A stretch of DNA of 64,000 bases from Rhizorhapis suberifaciens (GTDB lineage: Bacteria; Pseudomonadota; Alphaproteobacteria; Sphingomonadales; Sphingomonadaceae): assembly GCF_014200045.1 (NCBI RefSeq), contig NZ_JACHOV010000002.1, positions 62,001 to 126,000 of the forward strand. Direction: 5' to 3'. The notes beneath the pieces were generated by a model, which did no database searches, was not told the DNA's origin, and saw nothing but the letters and a program-made list of their open reading frames with translations. Both the position numbers and the translations under genes were made by a program. Each line of letters starts with the position of its first letter. Positions within the stretch are counted from its first letter, which is position 1. Of this stretch, positions 5,862 through 35,614 are shown piece by piece.

Positions 5862-6269
5862 CTATTTGGTCGCCTTGTAGGGCACGAAGTCGCCCAAGGC
5901 GCAACTTCCAGTCAACATACCTGAGCTGAAGTCCGCAACACGCGCAATGTCACCGCGGCAAAGCTGCGAGCCGAACACGTTCGTGACCAGCGTCCTACCA
6001 GAGCTGAGCCCATTGCAGGGCCCCATCACCCGGTTCAAATAGACTGTGCCGCCCGCCTTGTAGAGCAGCACATCATCGCTGATGACTTGCAGGTCCGCTC
6101 GCTGGGTCAAGCTGATGCAGCTTTGCTTTTTTCCCGCGACCTTGCCTTCCAGCGCCTTGTCCAGTGCGGTTTGTTGCTTTTGCGTCAGTGCGGGCGACTT
6201 GTCCTTCGCCAGGCCGGTGGAGGTGCAGGCGACGAGTAGGACGGGTAGCGCGATCATATAAGCACGCAT
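5862..6269 (-). CDS. Small lipoprotein, DUF6491-like
   Basis: A 135-residue lipoprotein. The start chosen (MRAYMIALPVLLVAC) has AGGAGA six bases upstream; an ATG 18 bases earlier would place that site inside the gene. The lipobox LLVAC marks lipidation at Cys15. The mature part has paired cysteines (CISLTQRADLQVI, GPCNGLSSG, QLCRGDIARV, GSCALGDFVPY), resembling the DUF6491 family common in sphingomonads, whose function is unknown. Its end meets the convergent thiol-oxidoreductase gene two bases away. The lipoprotein call is strong; the family name is from memory of its pattern. Confidence 0.75.
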   Translation of the reverse strand: MRAYMIALPVLLVACTSTGLAKDKSPALTQKQQTALDKALEGKVAGKKQSCISLTQRADLQVISDDVLLYKAGGTVYLNRVMGPCNGLSSGRTLVTNVFGSQLCRGDIARVADFSSGMLTGSCALGDFVPYKATK

Positions 6270-6319
6270 GGCACTTCTCCTGATCATTTGCTTCTTGGCA
6301 CAGGGATTATATTCAACGT

Positions 6320-7045
6320 TCAGAAAGCATCCTTGGCTGCACGCCGTTCCGCCAACTCCTTAGCATCCCGGGAGCGCATGAAGGGATTGGTCGCGAGCTC
6401 CAGCGCAATGGTCGTCGGGATTGTCGCTTCTCCATTGGAGCGGGCGACATCCACCTCCGTCATCCGGTGCCGGATCGCTTCATTGTCGGGTTCTGCGATC
6501 AGGGCGAAACGGCCGTTGCTCTGGGTATATTCATGGGCGCAATAAACCAAAGTCTCGGGGTCGAGGCGGGAAAGGCGCTGCATATTCGCGAACATCTGCT
6601 CCGCCGTCCCCTCGAAAAGACGGCCGCAGCCCATGGCAAACAGCGTGTCTCCAATAAAGATCAGGGGCTCGCCCGGCATGTGATAGGCAATATGCCCCGC
6701 AGTATGGGCCGGGACATCGATAACATAAGCGCAATGGTCCCCCAACATCACGGTGTCGCCGTCGCCGACTTGGCGGTCCAACGTCGGAATTTTGGCCGCC
6801 TCGGCCGCTGGCCCGGTGATGAAGCAGCCGGTTGCCGCTTTGATCTCCGCGTTGCCCCCGGTGTGGTCGGGGTGCCAATGGGTGTTCCAAATCTGAGTGA
6901 TTGTCCATCCGCGCTCTGTCGCCGCGTTGAGCACCGGTCCGGCAACCGCCGGGTCTATGGCGGCGGTTTCCCCGCTGGCCGGATCATGAACCAGCCAGAC
7001 ATAATTGTCCCCAAGAACGGGAATGCGCAGAACGTCAAGGCTCAT
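6320..7045 (-). CDS. gloB: Hydroxyacylglutathione hydrolase (glyoxalase II)
   Basis: A 241-residue metallo-beta-lactamase-fold enzyme that hydrolyses S-lactoylglutathione to lactate and glutathione in the cytoplasm, the second step of methylglyoxal detoxification. The binuclear metal motif THWHPDHTGGN is intact, followed by DVPAHTAGH, FIGDTLFAMGCGRLFEGT and YCAHEYTQSN. The C-terminal glyoxalase II domain ends with MRSRDAKELAERRAAKDAF. The start at 7045 overlaps the stop of gloA by one base (TAATG), so the pair is coupled. An ATG further upstream would lie inside gloA and is not needed. Confidence 0.95.
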   Translation of the reverse strand: MSLDVLRIPVLGDNYVWLVHDPASGETAAIDPAVAGPVLNAATERGWTITQIWNTHWHPDHTGGNAEIKAATGCFITGPAAEAAKIPTLDRQVGDGDTVMLGDHCAYVIDVPAHTAGHIAYHMPGEPLIFIGDTLFAMGCGRLFEGTAEQMFANMQRLSRLDPETLVYCAHEYTQSNGRFALIAEPDNEAIRHRMTEVDVARSNGEATIPTTIALELATNPFMRSRDAKELAERRAAKDAF

Positions 7046-30250: not shown

Positions 30251-30814
30251 ATGACAACGCTTGATCATGGTGAATCGGTGGAAATCCCCGAAAGCGGGGT
30301 CCGCCGCCGCGACTTCATTAATATTGCGGCAGTCAGTTTCGCCGGCGTCGGCGCGGTCGCCGTCATTCCGCCGCTGGTGAATCAAATGAATCCGAGTGCT
30401 GACGTGCTCGCGCTTGCATCGACTGAGGTGGACATTTCCGCCATTCAGCCCGGTCAGGCGATCAAGACCACCTTTCGCAGTCAGCCGCTTTTCGTTCGGC
30501 ACCTGACGCCAAAGGAAATCGCGGAAGCGGATGCCGTAGCGGTCAGCGACCTGCGCGATCCCCAGACATTGGAAGAACGCACCGTTGAGGGCAAGAAGCA
30601 GTGGCTGATCACCATGGGCGTCTGCACGCACCTCGGCTGTGTGCCGCTGGGCGCGGGCGAGGGTGAGAATCGGGGTGAGTTTGGCGGCTATTTCTGCCCA
30701 TGTCACGGTTCGCACTACGACACTGCGGCCCGTGTCCGCAAAGGCCCGGCACCCAAGAATCTGGAAGTGCCCGAATATAAGTTCACGTCCGACACTGTCG
30801 TGACGGTAGGCTGA
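30251..30814 (+). CDS. petA: Ubiquinol-cytochrome c reductase, Rieske iron-sulfur subunit
   Basis: A 187-residue inner-membrane protein that carries the Rieske 2Fe-2S cluster of the bc1 complex. A twin-arginine-type N-terminus (GVRRRDFINIAAVSFAGVGA) leads into the membrane anchor. The cluster ligands are in CTHLGCVPLG (Cys, His, Cys) and FCPCHGSHYD (Cys, His). The stop is 11 bases from petB. It opens the petABC operon, which ends at a strong terminator. Confidence 0.97.
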   Translation: MTTLDHGESVEIPESGVRRRDFINIAAVSFAGVGAVAVIPPLVNQMNPSADVLALASTEVDISAIQPGQAIKTTFRSQPLFVRHLTPKEIAEADAVAVSDLRDPQTLEERTVEGKKQWLITMGVCTHLGCVPLGAGEGENRGEFGGYFCPCHGSHYDTAARVRKGPAPKNLEVPEYKFTSDTVVTVG

Positions 30815-30825
30815 GGTAACAGATC

Positions 30826-32121
30826 ATGAGTTTTCCCTGGGCTGAGCATTACACCCCCAAGAATCCACTCATGCAGTGGATCGATTCCCGCCTGCCATTG
30901 CCGCGCATGGTCTATAATGCCGTGGGCAAGGGCTATCCGGTTCCCCGGAACCTGAACTATTGGTGGAACTTCGGCGTATTGTCGGGTTTCTTCCTTGGCC
31001 TGCAGATTGTCACCGGCATCATTCTTGCCATGCATTATGCGGCCAATGCGGGGGTCGCCTTCGACAGCGTCGAACACATCATGCGTGACGTGAATTCGGG
31101 CTGGATGTTGCGTTACGCTCACGCCAATGGGGCAAGCTTTTTCTTCATTGTTGTCTATATCCACCTCTTCCGTGGCCTGTTCTTCGGATCATATAAGGCG
31201 CCACGAGAGATGGTTTGGCTGCTTGGCCTTGTGATCTTCCTCCTGATGATGGCGACAGCCTTCATGGGCTATGTCCTTCCCTGGGGCCAGATGAGCTTCT
31301 GGGGCGCCAAGGTCATTACCGGCCTGTTCGGCGCCATCCCGTTCGTTGGCGAACCGATTCAGACATGGCTGCTCGGCGGCTTTGCCCCCGGCAACGCTTC
31401 GCTCAATCGCTTCTTCTCGCTCCACTATCTGCTGCCATTTGTTATCGCCGCAGTTGTCATTCTGCACATCTGGGCGCTGCACATTCCCGGTTCCAGCAAC
31501 CCTACCGGCGTGGACGTGAAAGGGCCGCAGGATACGGTTCCTTTCCACCCTTATTATACGGCGAAGGATGGCTTCGGGCTGGGCGTGGCGCTGATCGGTT
31601 TTGCGATCCTGCTGTTCTTCGCGCCGAATTTCCTGGGTCACCCGGACAACTATATTCCGGCCAACCCGCTTTCGACGCCGGCGCACATCGTTCCGGAATG
31701 GTATTTCTGGCCTTTCTACGCCATCCTGCGTGCGTTCACTTTCGACTTCTTCTTCATTCCTGCAAAGCTGCTCGGCGTGCTGGCGATGTTCGCATCGATC
31801 CTGCTGCTGTTCTTCCTGCCCTGGCTTGACCGCTCGCCGGTCCGTTCGGGCCGCTATCGCCCGCTGTTCAAGCAGTTTTTCTATCTGCTGCTCGTGGACG
31901 TGGCGATCCTTGGTTATTGCGGCGGCGCCCCTGCAGCGGAACCGTTCGTAATGATCAGTCAGTTGGCCTCGGCTTATTATTTTGCACACTTCCTGATCAT
32001 CCTGCCTGTCATCTCCGCCATCGAACGGCCGCTGCCGCTGCCTGGTTCGATCACTGAGGCAGTGCTTGGGAAAGACCAGACGGTCGTGGGTGGCAAAGCC
32101 GCCACGGTTCCGGCTGAATAA
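30826..32121 (+). CDS. petB: Ubiquinol-cytochrome c reductase, cytochrome b subunit
   Basis: A 431-residue membrane subunit holding hemes bL and bH and the two quinone sites of the bc1 complex. Signatures include [40 protein letters not shown] (heme histidines), [20 protein letters not shown] (Qo site), [20 protein letters not shown] and the PEWY motif in [18 protein letters not shown]. About eight membrane helices are visible. It lies between petA and petC with short gaps. Confidence 0.98.
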
Positions 32122-32135
32122 GGGGAATAGAAAAC

Positions 32136-32978
32136 ATGGTTCGCGTACTCGCTGCCCTTGTCGGCATCTTCTTTTCGGGCATGCTGCTCTATTCCTTCGT
32201 CTTCGGCGCGGTAAACTATGTCAGCGAACCGCCCGCTCCGACGGCCGAGCATGAATTCCATCTTTCTCCCAAGGAAGTGGCGTTCGCTTCGGATGGGCCC
32301 TTCGGCCATTATGACCGCCAACAACTGCAGCGCGGCTTTCAGGTCTATAAGGAAGTATGTTCCGCCTGCCATTCGCTGCGTCTGGTGGCCTTCCGTGACC
32401 TCGAAGCGCTTGGCTATAATGAAGCTGAGGTGAAGGCGATTGCCGCTAACTGGTCGGCTGAAACGCCGTCAGTCAATGAGGAAACCGGTGAGCCTGCGAC
32501 CCGCAAACCCGTTCCTGCCGATTATTTCCCCCAGCCGTTCGCCAATGACGTTGCTGCTCGTGCGGCCAATAATAACGCCGTTCCGCCTGATCTTTCCTTG
32601 ATGACGAAGGCGCGGCACCACGGCAATGCCTATATCTACTCGTTGCTGACCGGTTATCAGCAACAGCCTGCCGAACTTCTGAAGAAGTTCCCCGATGTGA
32701 AGACGCCGCAGGGGCTGCACTACAACCCTTATTTCGCGAACCTGAACCTTGCGATGGCTCCGCCGCTGACAGGCGATGGCCAGGTCACATATGCCGATGG
32801 AACCAAAGCGACCGTGAGCCAGATGGCGAAGGACGTTGCGGCGTTCCTTACCTGGACTGCCGAGCCGAAGCTGGAGAATCGGCATCGTGCAGGTGTCGCT
32901 GTGATCTTCTTCCTGATCGCCGCGACGATCCTGGCCTATATGTCCTATCGGAACATCTGGGCTGACAAGAAGCACTGA
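32136..32978 (+). CDS. petC: Ubiquinol-cytochrome c reductase, cytochrome c1
   Basis: A 280-residue heme c subunit of the bc1 complex. The N-terminal signal (RVLAALVGIFFSGMLLYSFV) directs the heme domain to the periplasm; heme binds at CSACHSLRLVAF (CxxCH), and the axial Met is probably in LNLAMAPPLTGDGQV. A C-terminal helix (AGVAVIFFLIAATILAYMSY) anchors it to the membrane. It completes the petABC set, and the operon ends at the hairpin 23 bases beyond the stop. Confidence 0.97.
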   Translation: MVRVLAALVGIFFSGMLLYSFVFGAVNYVSEPPAPTAEHEFHLSPKEVAFASDGPFGHYDRQQLQRGFQVYKEVCSACHSLRLVAFRDLEALGYNEAEVKAIAANWSAETPSVNEETGEPATRKPVPADYFPQPFANDVAARAANNNAVPPDLSLMTKARHHGNAYIYSLLTGYQQQPAELLKKFPDVKTPQGLHYNPYFANLNLAMAPPLTGDGQVTYADGTKATVSQMAKDVAAFLTWTAEPKLENRHRAGVAVIFFLIAATILAYMSYRNIWADKKH

Positions 32979-33001: not shown

Positions 33002-33030
33002 AAAGCCGGCGGGAAACCGCCGGCTTTCTT
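33002..33030 (+). terminator. Rho-independent terminator of petABC
   Basis: A perfect 11-base-pair stem (AAAGCCGGCGG with CCGCCGGCTTT) around a GAAA tetraloop, followed by CTTGTTTC. It sits between petC and the convergent regulator gene, and being nearly symmetrical (A-rich then T-rich flanks) could stop transcription from both sides. Confidence 0.9.
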
Positions 33031-33080: not shown

Positions 33081-33788
33081 TCAGGGACGTCTCGTCTCCT
33101 CTCCGCACCGTTCCAGCCGATAGCCATAGCCGAATATGGTAACGATCCTGAAGCCGTTTTCCGGCCCCAGGCGCAGCTTTGAACGTATCCGCGAAACATG
33201 CATGTCCAACGTTCGCGACGGCAGACCCGCGATCTTATTCCAGATTATCTGCGACAAATAAGGCCTCGATAATGCCCGCTCCGCATTCCGAAAGAATAGC
33301 ATCGCCAACGCGAACTCCTTCGCAGTCAACACCACCTTCTGATCATTCATTTCAACGCAGGATTGTTTGGGATCAAAATAATAGGGGCCGAAGCGTTGGG
33401 GAGCATTGGCTGGCAAGTCCTTGCCGCCGGACCGTCGCAACAGCGCCGCTATACGGGCGTGCAGAATCTCCGAATCCACCGGCAGCACGACATAGTCGTC
33501 CGCTCCGCCATGCAGCGCAGCGGCAGCATCCTCGTTATTGCCGCTGTCATTGACCATGAGGATCAGCGGGGCGGTTGGAATGTTGCTGGTTGTACTCCGC
33601 AGAACCTCCAGCCCAGTGCGATCGGAAAGCCGCCAGCCCAAAATCAGCAGGTCGAAAACGTCCCTCTGCAACTGCGTGATGAGCTGTCCGCCGGAGGTGA
33701 AGACGATAGCATTATGCCCCATCTCCTCCACGAACTGCTTTAACCTGCCAGCAGTCTGCAGGTCTTGGTCTGCAATTGCTACGCGCAT
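33081..33788 (-). CDS. OmpR-family regulator with receiver lacking phosphoacceptor Asp
   Basis: A 235-residue transcription factor with an N-terminal receiver-like domain and a C-terminal winged-helix domain (LTAKEFALAMLFFRNAERAL, SRTLDMHVSRIRSKLRL, FRIVTIFGYGYRLERC). The expected phosphoacceptor aspartate is Gly51 (FDLLILGWRLSDRTG). The conserved Lys before Pro is Leu (DDYVVLPVDSE), and the Thr/Ser switch position (LILMVNDSG) is Asn. It is therefore an atypical, probably phosphorylation-independent regulator. No histidine kinase gene is adjacent. It is convergent with petABC; targets are unknown. Confidence 0.9.
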   Translation of the reverse strand: MRVAIADQDLQTAGRLKQFVEEMGHNAIVFTSGGQLITQLQRDVFDLLILGWRLSDRTGLEVLRSTTSNIPTAPLILMVNDSGNNEDAAAALHGGADDYVVLPVDSEILHARIAALLRRSGGKDLPANAPQRFGPYYFDPKQSCVEMNDQKVVLTAKEFALAMLFFRNAERALSRPYLSQIIWNKIAGLPSRTLDMHVSRIRSKLRLGPENGFRIVTIFGYGYRLERCGEETRRP

Positions 33789-33906
33789 TGCACCTTCTAT
33801 CGAGCATGGTTCCCAGGCCGGACCGATCCTCGGTTTAGCGGACCCAAGCTACTCGTACTGTTACGGAATTGACAGATATATATCCAGAACCGAGCTCCGG
33901 TCAGAA

Positions 33907-35529
33907 TCAGCGGCAGCTGTCGCCCTCTCCCGCGATCAGATCAAGGCACCGGCCGTCGATCTCCTCCGATGGAACGGCCAAACCGATCTGTGTCGCCAAG
34001 GTAGGCATGATATCGGCCGTCTCCACAGCTAGCGGCTGCTCGAAGGGGCGGATGCCTTTGCGCCAGAACAGGATCGGGACGCGCCGATCATAGTCCCAGG
34101 GGCTGCCATGAGTGGCGACGCTGGTTTTGGGAATAGCGATGGGGGTCACCCATGGTTTTAGCATAACGACAAGATCCCCCGATCGCTGCGCATCAAAGGA
34201 CGCGCGGGCCCTTTCCAAGAGGGGCCAGCTGTCGGGCGGGCCTTTCGGCATCGGGGCAGCGGCCAGCTCATCCCGGCTGAAAACCGCCACCACTTGCGGA
34301 TGCGCTTTCAGCATGGTGGCAGCTTCGTTCGCGACGACTCGTCGCTCCGTCTCAGAGATCAACCGGCTGACATAATAGTCGCCATTGGGTCCATCGGCAT
34401 AAAGCAACTGATCTTCCAACCCCAATCTGGTTCCAATAGCCTTGCCAATGGTTTCGGCGTTAAGAGCAACATCTACCCGCTTGGCACTCGGCGCCCCATT
34501 CGTGACGCTACGTTCCGGTAAGTCATGGCCGCCATGGTCGGCAGTCAGAACAACCAGATAGTCAATGCCGGCACTGTCCAAGCTATCGAAGAACTCGCCG
34601 AGATTTCGGTCGAGGGTCATGAGTTGCCCGCACATTTCCGTGCCTTGTGTGCCATAGGCATGGCCGACATAGTCGGTCGCGGAAGCGCCGATGATTAGCA
34701 AGTCGGTCTGCGTTCCTTCGCCAAGCTTCAGCGCATCGCGAAATCCCGCCGCAAGAGCCAGTGTAGATGAATCAAGCTCGGGTGATGCGCGGAAGCTCTT
34801 CGCATCGCCTGCGGCTCGGGCGAATCGGCCAGTTCCGACGGTGCGGCTTCCTGCCTGAACCGCGTAGTTCCGTTCCCCGCATGGCTGGGGTAGATCGATT
34901 GGCGGTTGCGGCGTCGCGAGGCGAGCAGTCGCCGCTGCGTTTGCCTTTTCAGCGACGGCGTTGGATGCCCGGCCTCCGAGTGTGACGAACTTTTGACCGC
35001 CCCACCACCAAATCTGATCGGCTTGGCCGCCTGCCATCATCAATGCCGATCGGTCCTTGCCAGCAACCGCAACTATCCGAGTGCGCCGGTCCGCCTTCTT
35101 CATGCGATCCCCCAGCGTGGCTACTCGCAGATGAACGGGTGATGCGATGTAATTGGTGCTATCGGTGCCCGGCCGATTTTCGTCTTCGGCGCAATAAATC
35201 AGCTTGTCGGACCGTTTGGTGGACAAGTCGTACCAGCTATTCGCGATGATTCCGGTACGCATAGGACGGGCTCCCGTCAGGATCGTGGAATGGCCGGGGC
35301 ATGTTTCGGTCGCCGCATGGCCCTGATATCCTGATGGGAAAACCACTCCTTGGCTCAGCAGTCGTTTGAAGCCGCCGCGGAAGTGTTGACGATATTCAGT
35401 AAACACATCAGCGGAAAATTGATCGACGGAAATCGCCACGACGAGCTTTGGATGGGAACCATCGGCGGCCATCACGGGAAAGGACGTCATGAGCAGGAAT
35501 AAGAGGGCGAGGCTCCGAACGATCTGCAC
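33907..35529 (-). CDS. PafA-like alkaline phosphatase family protein
   Basis: A 540-residue periplasmic phosphohydrolase. I chose a GTG at 35529 because AAGGAG precedes it and a signal peptide follows directly (IVRSLALLFLLMTSFPVMAA); longer frames would overlap the dsbD promoter region. The mature enzyme has the metal site VVAISVDQFSADV, the nucleophilic Thr in HAATETCPGHSTILTGARP and the metal ligands TADHGGHDLPER and ATHGSPWDYDRRVPILFW. This is the pattern of PafA-type phosphatases, which act on phosphate monoesters. It is divergent from dsbD. Confidence 0.9.
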   Translation of the reverse strand: MQIVRSLALLFLLMTSFPVMAADGSHPKLVVAISVDQFSADVFTEYRQHFRGGFKRLLSQGVVFPSGYQGHAATETCPGHSTILTGARPMRTGIIANSWYDLSTKRSDKLIYCAEDENRPGTDSTNYIASPVHLRVATLGDRMKKADRRTRIVAVAGKDRSALMMAGGQADQIWWWGGQKFVTLGGRASNAVAEKANAAATARLATPQPPIDLPQPCGERNYAVQAGSRTVGTGRFARAAGDAKSFRASPELDSSTLALAAGFRDALKLGEGTQTDLLIIGASATDYVGHAYGTQGTEMCGQLMTLDRNLGEFFDSLDSAGIDYLVVLTADHGGHDLPERSVTNGAPSAKRVDVALNAETIGKAIGTRLGLEDQLLYADGPNGDYYVSRLISETERRVVANEAATMLKAHPQVVAVFSRDELAAAPMPKGPPDSWPLLERARASFDAQRSGDLVVMLKPWVTPIAIPKTSVATHGSPWDYDRRVPILFWRKGIRPFEQPLAVETADIMPTLATQIGLAVPSEEIDGRCLDLIAGEGDSCR

Positions 35530-35614
35530 GAATAACTCCTTGGCGAAGGTGGACCTTTTGCGGCTATAAGCAAGACCGGACAAGTCGGGACCAGCAGAGA
35601 TTATCCTGGGGCAC

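Follow-up and report, generated by a model that had tools for sequence, protein, structure and literature searches.

An orphan OmpR/PhoB-type regulator with a degenerate receiver, descended from BiofilmReg-type response regulators and with ihfB as a predicted target

How response regulators with pseudo-receiver domains arise, and how they are controlled, is an open question (PMC12632262). It is raised by an orphan regulator gene (33081–33788, minus strand) in the 64-kb stretch of the Rhizorhapis suberifaciens genome analysed here, which we call the window. What could such a protein do if its receiver no longer supports phosphotransfer, and what did it do before? The gene encodes a protein of 235 amino acids, as judged from the ORF call, Pfam and family alignment, and both of its domains score above the Pfam cut-off (receiver, PF00072, 50.6 bits; winged helix, PF00486, 59.8 bits). 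Its AlphaFold model (mean pLDDT 74.5, from an 8-row alignment) resembles solved receivers in a Foldseek comparison, with a TM score to target of ~0.9. The protein thus combines a receiver fold with a C-terminal winged helix, the architecture of the OmpR/PhoB group.

The receiver domain (residues 1–120, 33429–33788, minus strand) has a severely altered active site. A phosphorylatable response regulator carries an acidic pair, an acceptor Asp, a Thr or Ser, and a Lys; family alignments place D7, Q8, G51, N80 and L102 at these five positions (DD1, DD2, D, T and K). The initial annotation had described all active-site residues as lost: this holds for Q8, G51, N80 and L102, but the first acidic residue, D7, is retained, leaving the loss at four of five. 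Its individual assignments are borne out by the alignments: the acceptor position is Gly51, encoded by GGC (33636–33638, minus strand), Leu stands in for the conserved Lys, and Asn for the Thr/Ser. Aligned with receivers of the family, the window protein offers no Asp at the acceptor position under any regapping (LLILGWRL versus LVMVDWNM). Two further positions, D+4 (S55) and T+2 (S82), are likewise lost. Under the definition given in PMC12632262, the window protein counts among the atypical (pseudo-receiver) response regulators.

To place these changes in context, we compared the window genome (G000) with that of a sister species (G076), the two genomes that represent the genus here. The sister regulator is 55% identical to the window protein, and its five catalytic positions are occupied by D, R, N, T and M (R8, N51, T80, M102). 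DD2, the acceptor Asp and the Lys are therefore lost in both species, whereas the Thr is lost only in the window protein. Because the sister gene lies at the same locus and carries different substitutions, we rejected sequencing error or misalignment as the source of the degeneracy. Gene order is also shared: DsbD, phosphatase, regulator, petCBA, TrmL and HemF follow one another in both genomes. The gene directly upstream of the regulator and co-directional with it in both species (33907–35550, minus strand, start approximate) belongs to a PafA/PhoY-like alkaline phosphatase family and scores under the NCBIfam cut-offs for named phosphatases.

The regulator gene evolves under purifying selection and is not a pseudogene. 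Codon identity between the two species is 0.75 at position 2 and 0.43 at position 3, and dN/dS is ~0.2 (0.19, a rough value since dS is saturated) against 0.05–0.09 in neighbouring genes. Sites were counted as conserved when at least 90% of the 76 canonical relatives compared agree on them. The window protein keeps all 28 such sites in the winged-helix DNA-binding domain (residues 131–227, 33108–33398, minus strand), which the initial annotation had described as looking intact, and 17 of 24 in the receiver. Six of the seven receiver losses fall at phospho-chemistry positions (DD2, D, D+4, T, T+2 and K; hypergeometric ~3e-4).

The ancestry of the regulator emerges from its relatives. Of 299 genomes sampled across the taxonomic family, 87 contain a homologue, and the majority of the homologues lie near a gene for a LysM/FecR protein (LysM and FecR domains) and one for a sensor kinase (CHASE2, PAS, HisKA and HATPase domains); some also neighbour a DUF4136-like gene, whose domain match is weak. 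The BiofilmReg operon of Burkholderia contaminans consists of a regulator, a LysM/FecR protein, a CHASE2 kinase and a DUF4136 protein, and an insertion in its regulator abolished biofilm formation (PMC5192318). In our trees the window and sister proteins form a supported pair inside a clade of BiofilmReg-type regulators that itself has support of 97/90, which establishes descent only; the placement of the pair as sister to a 20-row clade has weaker support (91/62). The operon itself is gone from the window, which has neither the LysM/FecR gene nor the CHASE2 kinase gene beside the regulator. Neither of the two genomes contains a match to the FecR protein. A search of G000 for the cognate CHASE2 kinase returned only catalytic-core matches of 22–30% identity; in G076 the core matches were accompanied by a single short match (34%) to the CHASE2 part, located in a different ORF. 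The absence of a kinase gene nearby, already noted in the initial annotation, extends across the entire window, and the closest kinase-core match on the contig lies ~240 kb past the window end. The regulator formerly served a sensor kinase and is a clear, yet not unprecedented, case of a rewired switch.

Receiver decay was seen only among family members without the kinase. At loci with readable flanks, all 67 regulators with a cognate kinase nearby retain the five catalytic residues, while 8 of 14 kinase-less entries are degenerate (Variovorax counted once and one contig-end case excluded), although these 14 are not independent, some are perhaps paralogues, and a tree-based sign test is underpowered. 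In a second genus, g70, FecR and kinase were lost in place: in a kinase-less clade (support 97/93) the FecR–kinase–DUF4136 stretch is absent between the regulator and a DAHP synthase gene, and the state of the active site varies, from all residues present to two missing. It is intact in G138 and G192, carries T→A in G411, and carries DD2→H and T→A in G477. The two partially degenerate members, L183 (G477) and L186 (G411), still have a TGTAA-N5-TGTAA box upstream. Three further family relatives, L103 (G213), L104 (G058) and L106 (G095), also have degenerate receivers and no cognate kinase nearby, with the response regulator at ~8001; the L103 receiver is below recognition by Pfam. OmpR-type regulators of Variovorax (L009–L015, ~6001–6700) have Gly in place of the acceptor Asp, in most cases with the Lys retained, and their examined flanks contain no FecR or CHASE2 kinase gene. 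We rejected the Variovorax D→G change as the same event: these proteins form a separate long-branched group, most keep the Lys, and they were retrieved by a search pattern that already included the Gly. Our literature search returned no directly relevant paper on kinase loss accompanied by receiver decay.

To predict what the regulator binds, we examined the DNA upstream of its relatives. All 24 clade members examined, kinase-less g70 members included, have TGTAA-N5-TGTAA with at most one mismatch within 300 bp, mostly 90–170 bp, 5' of the regulator gene (1.1% in shuffles). The box is missing upstream of the gene in both G000 (intergenic region 33789–33906, minus strand) and G076, and autoregulation through it was rejected on this ground. 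The window as a whole holds no match at up to one mismatch. The 3.36 Mb of G000 contain a single exact box, 122 bp upstream of ihfB, and G076 has an exact box at the same rpsA–ihfB position; the site is identical at 17 of 18 bases between the species, against 23% and 30% in the 30-base flanks (ungapped). The recognition helix RTLDMHVSRIRSKL (33174–33221, minus strand) is common to kinase-linked relatives, close to that of Escherichia coli CpxR, RAIDMHISNLRRKL, and unique to this regulator among the seven OmpR-type regulators of the window genome. The CpxR consensus is GTAAA-N4-8-GTAAA (PMC5063474), and TGTAA-N5-TGTAA fits it, in line with the near-identity of the two recognition helices. Because the exact box is single and conserved and the helix is unique in the genome, ihfB is probably a target of the regulator: a strong prediction, not a demonstration. 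That one protein would read both the ihfB box and the family box is suggested by helix similarity, and the candidate ihfB box could serve another factor instead.

Boxes with up to one mismatch number 18 in G000 against 82 for a reversed-pattern control; since they are rarer than the control, no wider regulon is visible. The sister genome has a second exact box (L242, G076:C103:9009-9023), and a one-mismatch box, TGGAAGCTGATGTAA, is identical at G000:C2:292087 (L255) and G076:C287:855. In other genera, exact boxes lie 5' of ihfB in G088 (L237, −195), G202 (L231, −196) and G477 (L240, −73), and six genomes without a regulator match have none there at up to two mismatches. With this partial distribution, we do not claim ihfB control as a family-wide trait.

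We consider the following account the probable one. The ancestor would have been the response regulator in a two-component system of the BiofilmReg type. The genus appears to have lost the kinase and the FecR partner, presumably as the first step, and the gene sits between the alkaline phosphatase gene and petC. The receiver would then have lost its phosphotransfer chemistry under selection that was relaxed yet still purifying, with the DNA-binding domain preserved. The present-day protein would bind GTAAA-type tandem repeats without phosphorylation, including the ihfB box, and would be constitutively active, its activity set by its amount or by some partner; the ihfB promoter region is its best-supported predicted target. 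The initial annotation had proposed action without phosphorylation, and this part is strongly supported by the comparative sequence evidence: four of five catalytic residues, kinase and FecR are gone, the sister species is alike, and the DNA-binding domain is conserved. Redox control, which it had also suggested, fared worse. No Cys position is common to both species in their alignment, so there is no candidate for a switch cysteine of the type found in RitR and HP1021, and we rejected this mechanism.

Alternative explanations differ in how far they depart from this account. One is compatible with it and differs only in how activity is set: an altered pocket, or the α4–β5–α5 face, would switch DNA binding in response to a ligand or partner, as in JadR1, RedZ, ShkA and Rem-MirA (reviewed in PMC12632262). 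The receiver has been retained rather than deleted, it still has most of the conserved sites outside the catalytic set, and its predicted fold matches that of solved receivers. However, the neighbouring genes hint at no ligand, and the pocket residues differ between the species (G/N, N/T and L/M), which disfavours one conserved ligand contact; we regard such gating as unlikely. A further alternative retains control by modification at another residue, for example Ser/Thr or Lys, or by residual phosphorylation. D7 is still present, and GlnR has other reported covalent modifications (PMC12632262). With DD2, D, T and K lost, Asp phosphorylation at this site is nevertheless very unlikely, and the cognate kinase is absent; we consider this explanation extremely improbable.

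The gene might instead be a functionless remnant, decaying since the kinase was lost. Its end branch is the longest in the clade (1.06–1.42), and its dN/dS runs at two to four times the value of neighbouring genes; a branch of this length is equally compatible with relaxed constraint and with a new function. Decay without function is difficult to reconcile with an ORF intact in two divergent species, second codon positions much more conserved than third positions, a complete set of conserved DNA-binding sites, losses clustered at phospho-chemistry positions and a conserved ihfB box, and we judge it improbable. PetR of Rhodobacter is a precedent for a regulator of the bc1 operon, and our literature search returned no directly relevant paper on it. 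A similar role here could be proposed from the adjacent petABC operon (Rieske, cytochrome b and cytochrome c1; 30251–32978, plus strand), which adjoins the regulator gene in both members of the genus; g70 likewise shows linkage between the family gene and petABC, within ~2–17 kb. The genes are convergent, as the initial annotation had stated, with a terminator-like element (33002–33027, 11-bp stem, no strand assigned) between the end of petC at 32978 and the regulator. The window lacks the family box even at one mismatch, and in most relatives the gene lies far from petABC. Inspection of the locus and the box search of the 64-kb window revealed no tie to bc1. With a terminator between the genes, no family box anywhere in the window and the sole exact genomic box at ihfB, the convergence looks like a matter of position rather than function; bc1 regulation is very improbable.

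Returning to the ex-BiofilmReg regulator that would act without phosphorylation, a bolder extension is possible but doubtful: after kinase loss, a broad envelope or biofilm regulator may have collapsed to a constitutively DNA-binding regulator with nearly a single target, ihfB. If so, dosage of the regulator would stand in for signal input at a global chromosome-architecture gene. Pseudo-receiver regulators are already known; the interest here lies in a visible evolutionary path and a testable target. One family presents the series from kinase-linked and intact, through kinase-less and intact, to one or two residues lost and finally four, and it supplies a binding-box prediction together with one specific candidate target, testable in both kinase-bearing and kinase-less relatives.

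Among known systems, the closest by descent is BiofilmReg (PMC5192318): the window protein groups with regulators that share the gene order of that operon, a link made through these relatives rather than by alignment to the Burkholderia protein itself. In contrast to BiofilmReg, the window genus lacks the kinase, the FecR partner, the upstream box and, in the window protein, four of five receiver residues. E. coli CpxR shares the recognition helix pattern DMHxSxxRxKL and a box of tandem GTAAA repeats, but it has a canonical, kinase-controlled receiver, and overall similarity is at the ordinary level of the OmpR family. The atypical regulators ChxR, HP1043 and RitR resemble the window protein in OmpR/PhoB architecture, orphan status, loss of catalytic residues and a retained winged helix. 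This likeness is one of type and does not imply orthology, and the conserved cysteine of RitR has no equivalent here. Unlike for those proteins, both the kinase-linked ancestor type and intermediate stages of receiver decay are visible among the relatives of the window protein.
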